Assembly (NCBI RefSeq): GCF_026342405.1
Contig: NZ_JAPEMU010000001.1
Coordinates: forward strand, 8,618,001-8,682,000
Origin: Kitasatospora sp. NBC_00240
GTDB taxonomy: Bacteria > Actinomycetota > Actinomycetes > Streptomycetales > Streptomycetaceae
DNA length: 64,000 bases
Direction of reading: 5' to 3'
Shown one piece after another: positions 36,056 through 58,104 of this stretch. The position numbers were made by a program, and so were the translations under genes. Every line of letters begins with the position of its first letter. Within the stretch, counting starts at the first letter, position 1. The notes below the pieces were generated by a model. The model ran no database searches. It was not told where the DNA came from and saw only the letters and a program-made list of their open reading frames with translations.

Positions 36056-37795
36056 CTAGGCGTTCTTGACGGGGAGCTGCAGGTAGGAGGCGCGGTCGCC
36101 GCCGGTGTGGATGATGTGCTGTCCACTGTTGCGGGGGATGTAGTCGCGCGTCATCGGCATCAGCCCGCCCAGCGCGTTCTGCGCGCTGACGACCAGCCGG
36201 AGCTGCTCGCCGGGATGGAACACCAGCCCGATCGGCAGGAGGTCGATCTCGACGTCGACGACCTCGCCGGGGCTCAGCTTCTCGATCCGGTCGAAGCTGT
36301 GGGCGGGCACGTCCTCGGTCGCCAAGGCCTTGTCCAGGTGCCGGGCGGACACCCGCAGGCGCCCGTTCGAGCCCTTGTAGCGCAGGACCGAGGCGCCGTG
36401 CTCGGTGAGGTCGTGCAGCATCGCGCTGCGACCGGGCACGGTGAACTGCTGGAGGGGCGTGCCGTGCCGGTCCAGCTTCTGGACCAGGACGAACAGGTCC
36501 ATGTCGTCGGCGCCGTCCGCCTCGACCCACAGTCGGGCCATGGGGTAGCCGACCATCGTCGTCTCCTCGGCGAAGCCGACCACGAAGGAGGCCAGCGCGG
36601 ACTTCGACTCCGCTCTGTAGGCCGCCTGCGCCCCCTCGGCGGGCTGCGCGGTGGTCAGGGTGCGCGAGCGGGCATCGAGGTAGTACTTCGTGCGGGTGAC
36701 GTCCGCCGGCGGGAAGGAGTCCGCGGCCAGGTCGACGCGGTCGCCGCCTTCGAGGTCGAGCAGGCTGTAACGGACGCGGGGCGTCTGCTCCCAGCCGTTG
36801 TCCTCGCCCTTCAGATAGTGGTCGAAGAAGCGGCGCAGGTCCTCGACGTGCTCCTCGTCGTAGTAGTCGGGCCACTCCTGCGTGTTGTGGATGCGCAGCC
36901 ACTTGTCCTCGGAGGCGATCCGCCGCCAGCCGCGGAACGTGCCCGCCGTGTGCAGCGTGTTGGAGTAGCTGGCGACGACATAGGCCGGGACGGTGACGCG
37001 CTCGAACCGCGGGACCTTGTCCTCCCACAGTTCGTCGACCAGCGGGTGGCGTTCCGCCTCGGTGAGGATGTCCTCGCGGAGGTTGTTGCCCTCGTAGCTC
37101 TGCTTCTGGAGTCGTTCGGCGAAGCCGATGTCGGGCATGCCGCCGCGCAGCACGAGATCGCGGTAGACGTCGCTCAGGCCCTCCCAGGGGTTGATGGCCG
37201 CGAGGTGCGGCGGCTGCTCGGCGGCGGTGAACCACTGGGCGATCGCGAGGTAGGAGGTCCCGCTCATCGCGACCTTGCCGGTGCACCAGTCCTGAACCGC
37301 CAGCCACTCGATCAGGTCATGGCAGTCCTGGCCCTCCTGGCGTCCGAACATGACGCTGTCGCCCTCGGAGTTGGCGATGCCGCGGGGGTCGGGGTTGCAG
37401 ACGGCGTAGCCCTGCGCGCACCAGTACGCCGGATCGGGGCCCTCGAACTTCTGCAGGCCCGACAGAGTCCCGTTGTCGATGCCGAGCATGGTGAACAGGC
37501 CGAGGACGCTCGGGGCGGTGCCGTGGTTCTTGCCGTACGGGCTCCAGGCGACGATGACGGGCACCTTCTCGGTGCCGGCGGGGCGGAACACGTCGACGCG
37601 AATGGTGACACCGTCGCGCAGGGTGACGGCGACGTCCTTGTCGAGCACGATGTCGGTCGGCAGGGTCCGGAATCGGGGATCGATCCGGGAGCCCGCCGGC
37701 AGGGTCCGGGTGCCGGGCTCGAACTCGTTCATGAGTCCGTGCACGGGGCCCGCCTGGTAGTGCGACGGCTCGAACGACTTCTCTTCCTGGATCAT
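36056..37795 (-). CDS. CocE/NonD-type alpha/beta hydrolase (X-Pro dipeptidyl-peptidase S15 family)
   Basis: 579 residues. N-terminal alpha/beta-hydrolase (VAVTLRDGVTIRVDVFRP, SPYGKN, NPDPRGIANSEG) with nucleophile Ser181 in KVAMSGTSYLAIAQW, an inserted cap domain, and the C-terminal jelly-roll (about 370-579) typical of cocaine esterase and glutaryl-acylase relatives. It hydrolyses esters or amides; the substrate is unknown. GAGGAAA precedes the ATG; no signal peptide, so cytoplasmic. About 300 bp upstream is one of four copies of a 30-bp block that also precedes a two-HTH TetR gene, acs and a membrane-protein gene, so it is likely part of that regulon. Confidence 0.88.
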   Translation of the reverse strand: MIQEEKSFEPSHYQAGPVHGLMNEFEPGTRTLPAGSRIDPRFRTLPTDIVLDKDVAVTLRDGVTIRVDVFRPAGTEKVPVIVAWSPYGKNHGTAPSVLGLFTMLGIDNGTLSGLQKFEGPDPAYWCAQGYAVCNPDPRGIANSEGDSVMFGRQEGQDCHDLIEWLAVQDWCTGKVAMSGTSYLAIAQWFTAAEQPPHLAAINPWEGLSDVYRDLVLRGGMPDIGFAERLQKQSYEGNNLREDILTEAERHPLVDELWEDKVPRFERVTVPAYVVASYSNTLHTAGTFRGWRRIASEDKWLRIHNTQEWPDYYDEEHVEDLRRFFDHYLKGEDNGWEQTPRVRYSLLDLEGGDRVDLAADSFPPADVTRTKYYLDARSRTLTTAQPAEGAQAAYRAESKSALASFVVGFAEETTMVGYPMARLWVEADGADDMDLFVLVQKLDRHGTPLQQFTVPGRSAMLHDLTEHGASVLRYKGSNGRLRVSARHLDKALATEDVPAHSFDRIEKLSPGEVVDVEIDLLPIGLVFHPGEQLRLVVSAQNALGGLMPMTRDYIPRNSGQHIIHTGGDRASYLQLPVKNA

Positions 37796-38266
37796 TGCCG
37801 TTTCCTCTATCTGTGGGTGGGGCGGGGCCGGTTCTGTCCGTGCCCGCCGGCGCGGTCCCATCACTGGGCGGCCCGCATTCACTGCCTGACGGCCGGCGAG
37901 GGACAGAGCGGATGGGGGTCGAAGCCCGGGGGCTCGGAGGGGGTGTCCACGATCGGGAGGGCCCGCACGCCGTACGCTGCGCCGGCTCGGCTCCGGGGGC
38001 GACTCGGACTGCTTCCTACGGGCGGTCGGCTCGGTAGGCGTGCGGGCCCGAAGGGGGTGGGGAGCCCTGCAACCCGAAGCGCGACACCTTTATCAATGTA
38101 ATCTGTACTTGAGTTCCAGTCCAGGGAGTGGACCGATCACGACCACTCGACCGATCACCGACGGTCCCCAACGCTGCCGGCAGCGGCCAGGACAGCTTCC
38201 GGGGGCGGTCACGACCGCTGGTGCACCGGGAGCGGGCCCGAACGGACGCCCGCGCGGCCCGACGCC
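37796..38266. other. Intergenic region with a long-operator copy
   Basis: 471 bp between the hydrolase start and the meaB stop. Contains the 30-bp block at 38093-38122 but no recognisable gene. Confidence 0.55.
38093..38122. promoter_or_regulatory. Long TetR-type operator/promoter, copy A
   Basis: Contains TCAATGTAATCTGTACTTGA and then GTTCCAGTCC. On the minus strand it offers TGGACT, 17 bp, TACATT, a promoter reading toward the CocE-type hydrolase. Matches copies at 55193, 55420 and 56975. Confidence 0.7.
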
Positions 38267-52053: not shown

Positions 52054-52782
52054 ATGACAGCACGGGTAGCCGAGGTGGCGAACACGCCCGCCCACCCCGA
52101 CGAGGTGAGCAGGGCCCACCATGCGCTGCGACGCGCCATCATGCACGGCGAGCTGCGCGCCGGCGACCCGCTGTCGCAGGTCGAACTCGCCCGGCAGCTG
52201 GGCGTGAGCCGCGGTCCTCTGCGGGAGGCGCTCAGAATCCTCCAGCGTGAGGGCTTCATCCAGCAGGAGTCCCAGCACCGTGCCCGGGTGGCGGCATTCA
52301 GCGACGAGGACCTCGACGAGCTCTACGCCATGCGTATCAGCCTTGAATCGCTGGCGATCGGGATCGCCGTCCCGCGCATGAGCGAGGAGCACCTCCGACG
52401 ACTCGACCAGTTGTTGCAGGAGATGGACGACAAGGCCAGCACCGGGGACGTCGAGCAGTGGGAGTGCCCGCACGAGGAATTCCACCGCGCACTGGTCCAC
52501 CCGTCCGGCCCGCGCATCGAACGGGAACTCGCCCTGCTGTCGGACCACGCCACCCGCTACCGGATGGCCTTCGTGTCGTGGAACCCCCTCGAATGGCAGG
52601 CGGGTACGAGCGAGCAGCACCGCACGATCGCCGAGGCGGTGAAGTCCCGCGACGCGAGTGCTGCCTCGCGCACCCTGGCGGCCCACCTCGGCCGCACCGC
52701 CCTCGTCGTCCTCTCGATCGCATCCCCCACGTACGAGCCGGTCCGCATCCGCAGAGCTCTCGCTGCCGCCTGCAGCTCGTAG
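52054..52782 (+). CDS. GntR-family transcriptional regulator (FCD subgroup)
   Basis: 242 residues. HTH at about 18-85 (SRAHHALRRAIMHGELRAGDPLSQVELARQLGVSRGPLREALRILQREGFIQQES) followed by an FCD domain (about 95-225: LDELYAMRISLESLAIGIAVPRMSEEHLRRLDQLLQEMDD, ECPHEEFHRALVHPSG, SEQHRTIAEAVKSRDASAASRTLAAHLGRT) with the Asp/His metal-effector residues. These sense carboxylic acids. It closes the catabolic cluster and has the TGTCAACA-type site 5 upstream. The ATG follows AAAGGCC by about 10 nt. Confidence 0.92.
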   Translation: MTARVAEVANTPAHPDEVSRAHHALRRAIMHGELRAGDPLSQVELARQLGVSRGPLREALRILQREGFIQQESQHRARVAAFSDEDLDELYAMRISLESLAIGIAVPRMSEEHLRRLDQLLQEMDDKASTGDVEQWECPHEEFHRALVHPSGPRIERELALLSDHATRYRMAFVSWNPLEWQAGTSEQHRTIAEAVKSRDASAASRTLAAHLGRTALVVLSIASPTYEPVRIRRALAAACSS

Positions 52783-52896: not shown

Positions 52897-54909
<2,013 letters not shown>

Positions 54910-55192
54910 ATCTACGCTCTCTTTCTCAGATCCTTGATCGGGTGTTCCTGCGCGATATCGAGGCCCCGGCAGGCGTGGCCTCGTGGCGGCGCGCAGCGCC
55001 TCGGCCAGGACACGTCGGGTGCCGCCCAGCCGGCGCAGCAGAAGATCGCGGGGGCTTCCGGCCGTCGAGCGATGTGTCGCACGGCCGAGCCGGCCTCGGA
55101 GGCCTCGCGTGCGCCTGCGACCCGCGAGCCGGGCTCCGCGACCTCCTGGGGGTAAGGGTCCCCGGGTGTCTCTCCGGTGCGTGACATGCTTG

Positions 55193-55222
55193 TTAATTTA
55201 CTCTGTAGTCGAGTTTCAGTCT
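55193..55222. promoter_or_regulatory. Long TetR-type operator/promoter, copy B
   Basis: Contains TTAATTTACTCTGTAGTCGA and then GTTTCAGTCT. On the minus strand TAGACT, 17 bp, TAAATT forms a promoter toward acs; ACTC-N7-GAGT inside it is an inverted repeat. Confidence 0.75.
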
Positions 55223-55419
55223 AGATGATGCGCGCCCCGAAGTCGGCTGTCGGGCCCGGCCGGCGCCCGTTCATCGCCGCCGGCCCTGCCCCCGCTCGTC
55301 GCCCGCTCGTCGCCGGTTCATCGCCGGAGGTGCTACCCGAGGTGCCAGGTCGGAGACCACGGCGGTGGCCGGGCCCGGCGAAGGGGTCCGGTGGTGGTAC
55401 CGCGGGCGCCTGGCCATAT

Positions 55420-55449
55420 GGACTGAGACCCCAACACAGAGTAAATTGA
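55420..55449. promoter_or_regulatory. Long TetR-type operator/promoter, copy D
   Basis: On the plus strand TGGACT, 17 bp, TAAATT, ending 5 bp before the tetR ATG, so its transcript would be nearly leaderless. The complement carries TCAATTTACTCTGTG, matching the other copies. Confidence 0.75.
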
Positions 55450-55454
55450 CAATC

Positions 55455-56303
55455 ATGTCAGGTACCAAGGAGTCGTCAGGCCACCACGTTCCCCAGGCGA
55501 TCATCGAGGCCACGTTGCGGGCCGCGGACGCACGCCGGGTTTCCGTGGCCGACGTGACTCTGCGCGACATCGCCCAGGAGGCCGGGATCTCCCGCAGCAC
55601 CCTGCTGCGCCGGCTGGGCGGCACTCGGCAAACCCTGGACGAGGCGCTGCGCGCCGCCGGCGTCGAACCGGGAGGGCGGAAGCCGGTCAAGGAACGCGCG
55701 ATCGAGGCCACGGGCGCGCTGATCAGCAAGCAGGGGCTGGGAACAGTGACGTTCGAGCGCGTGGCGGCCGCGGCCGGGTGCTCCGTGCCCAGCCTCTACG
55801 CCGCCTTCGGCGGGCGCGACGAACTCCTGCGTGCGGTCTTCGAGCGCTTCACCCCGCTGGTCGACGTCGAGCGGTTCCTGGCCGCGCCGCACGGGGACCT
55901 GGAGGACACGGTCCGGCGCGTCTACCGGCTCCTGGTCGACGCCCTGGAGCGCGAGCCGCGTGTCCTGCCCGCCCTGCTGGCCGAGGTGTTCGCCCGCCCC
56001 GGCGACGAGAACGTCCAGTTCGTCTTCCAGAACCTCACTCCCCGCCTCCTGGCCGGCCTCGGGGAGTGGCTCGCCGGAGAAGCGGCCGCAGGCCGCATCC
56101 GTGACCTGCCCCTGCTCCTGCTCACCCAGCAGATGACCAGCCCGATCTTCCTGCATTTCCTGCTGCGCCCGGTCACCGGCCGGTTCGCCGCGGCCGGCCT
56201 GCCCACGGAGGACGAAGCCATCGAGACCTTCACTCAGGCTTTCCTCCGAGCCGTCGCCCTGCCTCCGCCCGACGAGAGCGGTCTGCAGCCGTCAAAGGGT
56301 TAG
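55455..56303 (+). CDS. TetR-family regulator with two helix-turn-helix domains
   Basis: 282 residues. Two TetR-type DNA-binding segments in tandem: the first at about 14-60 ([56 protein letters not shown]) and the second at about 78-125 (AIEATGALISKQGLGTVTFERVAAAAGCSVPSLYAAFGGRDELLRAVFERF), then an all-helical ligand domain to the end. Ordinary TetR proteins have one HTH of about 47 residues and total about 200 residues; the additional N-terminal HTH explains the length. No ribosome site precedes the ATG; the promoter-like copy D ends 5 bp upstream, so translation may be leaderless. Likely controls acs, the hydrolase at 36056 and the membrane gene at 57106. Confidence 0.85.
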   Translation: MSGTKESSGHHVPQAIIEATLRAADARRVSVADVTLRDIAQEAGISRSTLLRRLGGTRQTLDEALRAAGVEPGGRKPVKERAIEATGALISKQGLGTVTFERVAAAAGCSVPSLYAAFGGRDELLRAVFERFTPLVDVERFLAAPHGDLEDTVRRVYRLLVDALEREPRVLPALLAEVFARPGDENVQFVFQNLTPRLLAGLGEWLAGEAAAGRIRDLPLLLLTQQMTSPIFLHFLLRPVTGRFAAAGLPTEDEAIETFTQAFLRAVALPPPDESGLQPSKG

Positions 56304-56974
56304 GTCGGAGACATCCGGCCGGGGGCCTGCGGCGCGGCCGCGCGGGCGGTGCCACCACGGGGGTAGAGCCCGTCCGCCGCTCCGACGCGTGTCGGCCTGT
56401 CCCGCACGCGGCGCTGGCGGACCGCGACGCCGTTCCGTCCGGGTCCGACGCCGGTCCGGAACTGATGCCGGAGGGGCGCGAAGCCCGGTTGCCCTGAGAT
56501 CTGCCGGTGCGGACCCGGCGTCCGACCGCTGCGGCCGGTGCTGAGGATGTCGGTGGGTCCGGCCCGGCCGTGCCGAGCGCGCGCCTTCGCCGAACCCTCG
56601 CGTCGACGAAGCACCTCGACGGGGGCGCCGGTTGTGCCGGCCGGAGAACCCCTCGCCTTGGGCGATGACCTCGAATTGTCGTGATGACCTCGAACGGCGA
56701 CGAGGCCCCGCTGCCCGGCTCGACTCGTACGGGCCTGTCACCTGCCAGGCGTGCGTCGCATGCAGGGGTACAGGGGTACAGGGGCGCAAAGCCGAAAGCG
56801 CCGCGAGTTCGGACGTCGCTCCCCCCGACCCTTGCCCGATCGGAGTGTCCGCACGGCTGACTTTCTCCCTCTGCCCGCACGGCTGGCTCCCTGTTCCAGG
56901 GCCGGTGCTGGCGGTTGCCTCCGGAATCCCGGGGCCGGGACGGGGCGACGCCATCGTGAAGCCTGGAACCTGAC
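56304..56974. other. Intergenic stretch without a supported gene
   Basis: About 670 bp. A minus-strand frame (56954-56292) begins 20 bp after copy C of the operator, but its Arg/Pro/Gly-rich product shows no family and overlaps the tetR end, so it is not called. Confidence 0.45.
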
Positions 56975-57004
56975 TTAATGTACTCTGTAATCAGGTTCCA
57001 CAAT
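56975..57004. promoter_or_regulatory. Long TetR-type operator, copy C
   Basis: Contains TTAATGTACTCTGTAATCAG and then GTTCCA. It lies about 100 bp upstream of the membrane-protein gene at 57106; its promoter-like orientation is leftward, so for this gene it may act only as an operator. Confidence 0.65.
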
Positions 57005-57105
57005 ACGGAGCTCGACCGCCCGGAGCCGCCCGCCGGCAGCGCTCCGCTCCAGGCCCGCCCAGCAAAGCCCTGTCCGCGTGCGGCAGGAGGCATCGAAGGA
57101 GAGCC

Positions 57106-58104
57106 ATGTCCATGAACCCCTCGCAGCCCGATGCGGGCCGCCGCAAGCTGCCCCTGGTCGTTCTCGGCCTGGCGGCCCTGGTCGCCACGATGCTGTGTGC
57201 TTTCGCCCTCCCCTCCATCCACGGCGGTCCGCACCGTGTGCCCGTAGGCGTCACCGGGTCCCAGCAGGTTGTCGAGGATCTGCGGAGGAGTACCGACAGC
57301 AAGGCCTGGGACGTCCGCCTCTACAGCGACCCTGCCGCACTCCGGTCGGCGATCGAGGAGCGCGACGTCGCGGGGGGCCTCTCGGTCACCGCTCACGGAG
57401 TCGACGTCTACACCGCCACCGCCGGCGGTCCCTCGGCCACCGGCGCCCTCACCACCCTGGGCAGCAAGGTCGCCGCGCAGCACGGGACCCGGGCATCCGT
57501 CCAGGACTTGGTCCCCTTCACCGAGGACGACCCCCGCGGTGGCGGGCTGACCGCCGTGCTCCTGCCTCTGATCTTCGGCGGGATCTTCCCCGCCCTCATC
57601 CTCAGCAGCCTCTTCCCGGGGCACCGCGGACTGCGGACCCGCCTGTCCGGGGGTCTCCTGTTCTCCGTCGTCGCGGGCGCCGCCGTAGCCGCCGTTCTCC
57701 GGTTCGCCACCCACTCGATCAACGGCGACTACTGGCTCACCGCACTCGGACTGATCCTTGGCATGGCCGCACTCTCCAGCACCCTGATCGGCCTCCAGGC
57801 TTTCATCGGCATCATCGGCTTCGCCGCCGGGAGCGCGCTCATGATGCTTCTGGGCAACCCGCTCTCGGGCCTGACGACAGGCCCCCACTGGCTCCCCGAG
57901 GGCTGGGCCGCATTCGGGCAGCTCCTTCCGCCGGGCGCTTCCGGAAGCCTCCTGCGCGCCAACGGGTTCTTCGGCGGCGCCGGCGCCGGCCTGCCCGCCC
58001 TCGTACTGACCGCCTGGGCGGTTTTCGGTGTCGCTCTCGTCCTCCTCGCCGACCGGCGCGGGCAGCGCGCCATGTCCGTCCGTCGCGAAATCCTCTCCGT
58101 CTGA
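57106..58104 (+). CDS. Multi-pass membrane protein, YhgE/ABC-2-permease-like
   Basis: 332 residues. One N-terminal helix (LPLVVLGLAALVATMLCAFALPSI, about 15-38), an extracytoplasmic domain (about 40-145: VPVGVTGSQQVVEDLRRS, LRSAIEERDVAGGLSV, TTLGSKVAAQHGT) and about five further helices to the C-terminus. This is the plan of ABC-2-type or YhgE/Pip-related permeases, which export lipids or drugs. AAGGAGAGCC directly precedes the ATG. A copy of the two-HTH TetR operator lies about 100 bp upstream, consistent with a drug- or acid-responsive exporter. No ATPase gene is adjacent. Confidence 0.8.
   Translation: MSMNPSQPDAGRRKLPLVVLGLAALVATMLCAFALPSIHGGPHRVPVGVTGSQQVVEDLRRSTDSKAWDVRLYSDPAALRSAIEERDVAGGLSVTAHGVDVYTATAGGPSATGALTTLGSKVAAQHGTRASVQDLVPFTEDDPRGGGLTAVLLPLIFGGIFPALILSSLFPGHRGLRTRLSGGLLFSVVAGAAVAAVLRFATHSINGDYWLTALGLILGMAALSSTLIGLQAFIGIIGFAAGSALMMLLGNPLSGLTTGPHWLPEGWAAFGQLLPPGASGSLLRANGFFGGAGAGLPALVLTAWAVFGVALVLLADRRGQRAMSVRREILSV

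Follow-up and report, generated by a model that had tools for sequence, protein, structure and literature searches.

A tandem-HTH regulator of the TetR family and a 37-bp four-element palindrome predicted as its operator

A TetR-family regulator encoded in a stretch of 64,000 nucleotides from Kitasatospora sp. NBC_00240 (the whole stretch analyzed, hereafter the window) was found to combine two helix-turn-helix (HTH) domains in one chain with a 37-bp palindrome of four elements at fixed spacing, which is present at four sites in the window and, among the genomes scanned, is restricted to those carrying the gene. With regard to its mode of action, we infer that the protein binds this palindrome as a dimer, that each type of HTH reads its own pair of elements, and that binding represses the genes concerned until a ligand induces them. 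In the reading that we hold to be probable, one regulator dimer would place four HTHs in four successive major grooves of the palindrome. An earlier note on this DNA had proposed that a double HTH reads an unusually long composite operator, and the comparison with relatives described here supports this proposal well.

TetR regulators are widely employed as sensors, with a specificity that is limited by short operators of 15–20 bp. A natural four-headed layout with a 37-bp address would give a far higher specificity than such operators, and the system would allow one to test directly how domain duplication shapes the evolution of operator length and helical phasing. Because the predicted operator is family-wide, targets should be predictable in many actinobacteria, including the recurrent monooxygenase and permease genes.

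Domain architecture of the regulator and its relatives

The features of the locus are compiled in Table 1. The list of open reading frames (ORFs) places the start of the regulator gene at an upstream GTG; the ATG at 55455 is the start chosen by reading. The Pfam profile TetR_N (PF00440) matched two stretches of the protein (whole protein, E 2.3e-15). When the segments were searched singly, HTH2 scored 41.7 bits against a cut-off of 24, and HTH1 22.3 bits, just below it. Among the HTH1 segments of six relatives, one (L064) exceeded the cut-off, three gave weaker matches, and no match at E 0.01 was obtained in the remaining two.

The AlphaFold2 (AF2) model of the whole regulator had a pLDDT of 84.5, and HTH1 modeled in isolation reached 89.9. 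The listed fold matches of HTH1 alone that carried a family name were TetR-type regulators, with weak E-values for a query of 67 residues (Foldseek E of at least 0.085 at probability 0.9–1.0; VIA Z of at most 8.0), and its TetR label is thus drawn from the agreement among the fold matches without any one strong match. On this modeling, HTH1 is predicted to fold as a TetR-type DNA-binding domain. Together with the two TetR_N stretches, this bears out the two tandem HTH segments described in the earlier note, which had also allowed that the first might prove to be no HTH at all. In the fold search with the whole model, the listed alignments began only at about residue 64, beyond which the model shows an ordinary TetR architecture, and this start does not argue against the existence of a solved structure that includes both HTHs; VIA-align gave Z values up to 17.5 over residues 76–266, with 182 residues aligned with 6azh. 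The profile search of solved chains left HTH1 uncovered, the best stretch of each of its 46 hits beginning at profile position 55 or later. The protein possesses the N-terminal TetR_N domain and the all-helical ligand-binding/dimerization domain that characterize the TetR/AcrR family, and a palindromic operator is predicted at its own promoter.

Table 1. Positions and strands in the window of the regulator, its domains, the predicted operators and neighboring features. Bit scores of the operators are from a family matrix trained without the window sites.
Feature	Position	Strand	Basis and remarks
Tandem-HTH TetR-family regulator	55455..56303	+	282 aa; ORF, two TetR_N stretches and AF2 model
HTH1	55494..55655	+	Residues 14-67; AF2 helices 14-27, 36-43, 47-53, 58-67
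Linker GVEPGGRKPV	55656..55685	+	10 residues between HTH1 and HTH2; conserved
HTH2, canonical TetR DNA-binding domain	55686..55850	+	Residues 78-132; helices 78-93, 100-107, 111-118, 121-132
Single TetR-type ligand-binding/dimerization domain	55851..56264	+	Residues 133-270; structural alignment
Predicted 37-bp operator, regulator's own promoter	55424..55460	-	26.0 bits; profile-model E 0.142
Predicted 37-bp operator heading the relic, upstream of acs	55182..55218	+	36.0 bits; profile-model E 1.8e-4
Predicted 37-bp operator upstream of the permease-like gene	56964..57000	+	36.2 bits; profile-model E 0.002
Predicted 37-bp operator upstream of the CocE/NonD-type hydrolase gene	38082..38118	+	34.1 bits; profile-model E 1.8e-4
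Relic: inverted, frame-broken copy of the regulator promoter and about 68 codons	54985..55227	-	71% identity, 244 columns, E 2e-30
Putative target: permease-like membrane protein	57106..58104	+	332 aa; name by reading
Putative target: CocE/NonD family hydrolase	36056..37882	-	TIGR00976, 238 bits; start codon uncertain
Possible target: acetate--CoA ligase (acs), downstream of the relic operator	52897..54909	-	NF001208, 1027 bits
GntR-like regulator ORF	52054..52782	+	By reading; adjoins the 3' end of acs

When 100 genomes, the window's own among them, were searched with the whole protein, 11 relatives were found in 60 same-genus genomes (46–53% identity over the best stretches), all of which align through both HTHs, ten in one piece and one split over two contigs; the remaining matches listed were partial, with E 6.6e-10 or weaker. 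No relative was detected among plasmid records at E 1e-20. A collection of 84,980 species was also scanned with two peptide patterns lying in HTH1 and the linker, which yielded 179 stretches and 104 confirmed relatives, the best 80 of which were kept. They belong mainly to Actinomycetota; two are from Nannocystis, and one is from an Acidobacteria bin that groups with a Mycobacterium in the tree and may be misbinned. The window protein itself falls in an 11-row clade (support 98/93), seven rows of which have the permease.

Since the peptide patterns lay in HTH1 and the linker, the conservation of HTH1 among the 80 relatives is biased. Conservation was also assessed in ten relatives from the whole-protein search, chosen without the patterns and all from the window's genus. 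In these, residues 44–56, which form the HTH1 recognition segment GISRSTLLRRLGG, were 97% identical to the window protein and constituted the most conserved segment measured, compared to 59% for the HTH2 recognition segment and 44% for the ligand domain.

The 37-bp element across the family and in the window

An ungapped 37-bp element, TGRNAY-N5-TANA-N7-TNTA-N5-RTNYCA, was present near the gene start in 76 of the 80 relatives, at a threshold of 15.3 bits, which was the best score among 80 reversed control loci. In three of the other four, a site lies 1–2.5 kb upstream, and the fourth (L086) is, by reading, a fragment. Motif discovery was performed on 76 promoter regions, i.e., those of the 79 of 80 proteins that were long enough minus three near-duplicates, and gave a summed log-likelihood ratio of 1153 (40 random starts) vs 150 and 166 for two shuffled sets (10 random starts). 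The matrix used to score the 80 loci was trained on these same promoters, and the held-out test was a cross-validation with the Mycobacteriales. A matrix built from 29 Mycobacteriales promoters placed 42 of the 47 others above all reversed controls; in the 64-kb window, its six best hits all fell on the four sites, two of which were hit a second time off register, and its maximum on the reversed window was 2.5 bits. With the training reversed, the 47 others recovered 23 of the 29 Mycobacteriales promoters, and the four best hits in the window were again the four sites.

The matrix was symmetric about position 22 (r 0.73). Complementarity was counted in the 73 of 76 sites above 15.3 bits, read in gene direction. 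For the outer arms, 13–18 bp from the dyad, it was 0.67 vs 0.13–0.35 at 16 neighboring centers, and for the inner elements, 4–7 bp from the dyad, 0.45 vs 0.12–0.34. The outer arms have another sequence than the inner elements and are the more strongly conserved. The four element centers lie at −15.5, −5.5, +5.5 and +15.5, in fixed steps of 10, 11 and 10 bp, and therefore all four are on the same side of the helix. The earlier note had seen a recurrent block of 26–30 bp, mostly not symmetric, and had taken the asymmetry as a sign that one monomer uses two different domains. That extent leaves out one arm of what is a 37-bp element, palindromic about its center across the family, and the argument from asymmetry was mistaken: the palindrome has two different elements per half.

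Of 76 relatives, 24 have the start codon inside an operator arm and 22 have a TANNNT hexamer at the dyad, 18 of them belonging to those 24; at ten other offsets, the hexamer was present in 0–12 of 76. This indicates that the predicted operator covers both the promoter and the start of a probably leaderless gene. At the window locus, too, the regulator gene is probably leaderless and starts inside its own operator, the start codon (55455–55457) lying within one arm of the 55424 site. A −35/−10 pair with a 17-bp spacer had been noted earlier for every copy of the block; by reading, it is present at 38093, 55193 and 55420 (TGGACT or TAGACT, then TAAATT or TACATT) and absent at 56975, and a strict sigma-70 scan of 54900–57150 listed none.

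Side by side, the four window sites vary in symmetry, the outer-arm pairs being complementary at 6/6 positions in the 56964 site, where the arms form a perfect 10-bp inverted repeat, 4/6 in the 55182 site, 3/6 in the 38082 site and 4/6 in the 55424 site. All depart from the consensus in the inner-left element (TTAA or TCAA), and the lowest score belongs to the site at the regulator's promoter. The recurrence of the block at 38093, 55193, 55420 and 56975 was confirmed, as its core AATKTAMTCTGTR occurs four times in the window (up to two mismatches) vs 0.46 expected; at one mismatch, the whole genome holds only two further places. The one-mismatch core places C1:1713220, upstream of a TetR-like gene with one HTH by reading, and C1:7953991 were rejected as operators, both being missed by the full profile model.

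This profile model was built from 61 hand-picked sites, the four in the window and 57 from the 76 relatives with a site, with some high scorers omitted. In the 10.4-Mb genome, it matched only the four window sites (E up to 10), all within 19 kb, which disposes of the suspicion, raised in the earlier note itself, that the block is a promoter shared genome-wide. Among the 100 genomes, 10 of 12 gene carriers and 0 of 88 non-carriers were matched (Fisher p 4e-12); the carrier matches hold partly by construction, several being rows of the model, and it is the zero among non-carriers that is independent. One to four sites per genome were found in each of the ten matched genomes. The other two carriers (G017 and G018) gave no model match at E 0.1, and by reading, a site is present in both.

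Additional sites were observed at some loci. Eight relatives of the Kitasatospora/Streptomyces clade (L075, L087, L095, L096, L105, L108, L111 and L116) have a second, weaker, overlapping site of 13.7–21.6 bits, at most about 45 bp from the regulator start. In another relative (L059), no site lies close to the regulator start; two sites with scores of 34.2 and 23.4 bits, separated by 50 bp, were found farther upstream, at about 1.04 and 1.09 kb, where they precede a neighboring gene.

Putative targets and a decayed inverted duplicate

The permease-like protein gave no Pfam or NCBIfam match; at E 0.001, it had matches in 53 of the 62 genomes searched, its own included. Seven other relatives have a homolog of it in their loci, with 57–58% identity in four cases and 28–37% in three. 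In Nocardia alni (L073), a CocE/NonD homolog adjoins permease and regulator, and another such homolog lies in locus L065. These permease and hydrolase homologs in relatives' loci support the prediction that the 56964 and 38082 sites are functional. No copy of the regulator gene was found around either site, the sole match to it nearby being 24 bp long (E 0.006) and about 160 bp from the 38082 site. The acs gene is possibly a target, judging from its position. An acylated compound as the ligand would be faintly suggested by the combination of hydrolase and permease, perhaps together with an acetate-activating enzyme. The commonest neighbor cluster among the 80 relatives is a flavin-type monooxygenase (name by reading), which lies within the fetched flanks of 29 loci and is often transcribed divergently to the regulator.

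Between acs and the regulator lies the relic of an inverted duplicate. Up to its indel, the differences from the regulator gene are spread evenly over the codon positions (15/14/14), a pattern as in unconstrained DNA. Since the 55182 site belongs to the relic, it arose by duplication; of the four copies described earlier, the one at 55193 is thus not of independent origin. Identity is 37/46 in the operator and start region, 72/115 from there to the indel and 64/82 beyond it. The idea that the relic operator was better kept than the coding part was dropped: its p of 0.04 came from the stretch up to the indel only, and against all the remaining relic the comparison is 37/46 vs 136/197 (p 0.15). 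The relic operator scores above the regulator's own (36.0 vs 26.0 bits). A 91-codon ORF at 54912–55187 was rejected as a gene; it overlaps the relic, and in 61 genomes other than its own, a single, weak match was obtained (51 residues, E 2e-4).

Proposed mechanism, alternatives and comparison with known systems

In the mechanism that we favor, the usual TetR DNA-binding domain is preceded by a second one acquired by fusion, giving the order HTH1, HTH2 and ligand domain, and the protein would form an ordinary TetR homodimer via its C-terminal domain, with four HTHs per dimer that dock into successive major grooves on one face of the DNA. The two HTH2 domains would read the inner pair TANA...TNTA, whose centers are 11 bp apart, the normal TetR spacing. 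This assignment agrees with the recognition-helix distances in known TetR–DNA complexes, which fit an 11-bp spacing and are given as 31–38 Å and 32–38 Å in the portions available of two papers (PMC4150764 and PMC11667970, respectively). The outer arms TGRNAY...RTNYCA, which lie beyond the inner pair by a further turn of the helix on either side, would then be read by the two HTH1 domains; these arms are the geometric remainder, and the conservation of HTH1 goes in step with theirs. A bound operator would have its −10 region covered, as would the start codon in the case of the regulator gene itself. The regulator would thus act as an autoregulated repressor, and its release by a ligand would induce the regulator gene, the permease-like gene at 57106, the hydrolase gene at 36056–37882 and possibly acs. 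Counting against this mechanism are the HTH1 score just below the TetR_N cut-off, the departures of the window sites from the consensus, the low score of the regulator's own site and the two carriers without a model match. By extension, tandem-HTH TetRs may form a widespread subfamily reading four grooves, in which the HTH1/outer-arm pairing is near invariant and the HTH2/inner pairing variable, a generalization about which our judgment is evenly balanced. If true, HTH1 and the outer arms would be a shared address, and HTH2 and the inner elements a private one.

A rather unlikely alternative is a pair of dimers side by side on the palindrome, one half-operator each, as in QacR and CprB, in which mainly one HTH per chain is used and the extra HTH either is a remnant or serves as a dimer–dimer contact. 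In its favor is a local pseudo-dyad at −11, where the left half-operator shows a complementarity of 0.46, the highest local value (other centers, 0.13–0.40); at +11, the right half-operator shows only 0.33, within the range of other centers. The right half of the matrix has a second symmetry peak (11 pairs, r 0.57; all other values at most 0.41), which also fits this arrangement, as do the long palindromes bound by the single-HTH TetRs QacR, CprB and MSMEG-3765. However, HTH1 contains the most conserved protein segment and would make a poor remnant, inner and outer elements are unlike in sequence and conservation, and eight HTHs for four grooves would leave half of them idle.

It is improbable that HTH1 and HTH2 of one chain form a pseudo-dimer on the half-operator TGRAA-N5-TTACA, in the manner of Mce3R, with the dimer joining two half-operators, possibly on separate DNA stretches. 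The same pseudo-dyad at −11 would suit this arrangement, and Mce3R itself uses both non-identical HTHs of its chain, according to the part of its report that was available (PMC11667970), but the regulator has no ligand domain between its two HTHs, and the half-spacing is fixed across the family, as the ungapped motif attests, which makes joint reading of both halves on a single DNA probable. That the block is a mere strong promoter common to neighboring genes, with the regulator binding elsewhere, is very improbable: the TANNNT hexamer at the dyad and the −35/−10-like pair at three window sites would agree with it, but the genome holds only four sites and the 88 genomes without the gene none, the outer arms are not promoter elements, and no fitting −35 accompanies the copy at 56964.

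The reading as one dimer on four grooves was then set beside known systems. A tandem-HTH TetR with a single ligand domain was not encountered in the open-access literature searched, as far as its partial listings reach, and Mce3R was the nearest among the matches listed; one passage was taken as loosely worded, since it gives the homodimer 46.9 kDa, the size of a one-HTH TetR. The predicted combination of an HTH1-HTH2-one-ligand-domain TetR with a 37-bp four-element palindrome would accordingly be a layout found in none of that literature.

In the available excerpts of its report, Mce3R (Rv1963c) is described as a double TetR repressor with two non-identical HTHs per chain and an asymmetric site of 25–27 bp (PMC11667970). 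The regulator is like it in having two non-identical TetR-type HTHs in one chain, a long operator and, by prediction, autoregulation. The two differ in that Mce3R consists of two TetR modules in a chain of 406 residues that pair within the chain, whereas the regulator, with its 282 residues, has the order HTH-HTH-one ligand domain and lacks two complete modules, HTH2 starting at residue 78, ten residues past HTH1. Moreover, the operator of Mce3R is non-palindromic, in contrast to the family's 37-bp element, with its symmetry of r 0.73 and arms 0.67 complementary over 73 sites.

An analogy in working, with an unrelated fold, is offered by the AraC type, to which MarA belongs, with two HTHs in one chain. 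Rob is another such protein, as stated in the accessible part of its source (PMC6018408). In the AraC type, the HTHs are usually C-terminal and there is no TetR ligand domain; the regulator matched the AraC profile PF00165 with 18.5 bits, below the cut-off of 26.6, over only 20 residues.

Closer in fold, over residues 78–270, are QacR, which binds a 28-bp operator as a tetramer (PMC4482099), and CprB, a dimer of dimers on its operator (PMC4150764), both as given in the source portions available. With these, the regulator would share four HTHs on one long operator; in QacR and CprB, they come from two dimers with one HTH per chain, whereas the regulator has two HTH domains per chain. Among single-HTH TetRs, MSMEG-3765 has a 36-bp palindrome, according to the available part of its report (PMC10663510). 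With such ordinary TetRs, TetR itself included, the regulator has in common the ligand domain, HTH2 and a predicted palindromic operator at its own promoter; unlike them, it possesses a second, N-terminal DNA-binding domain.
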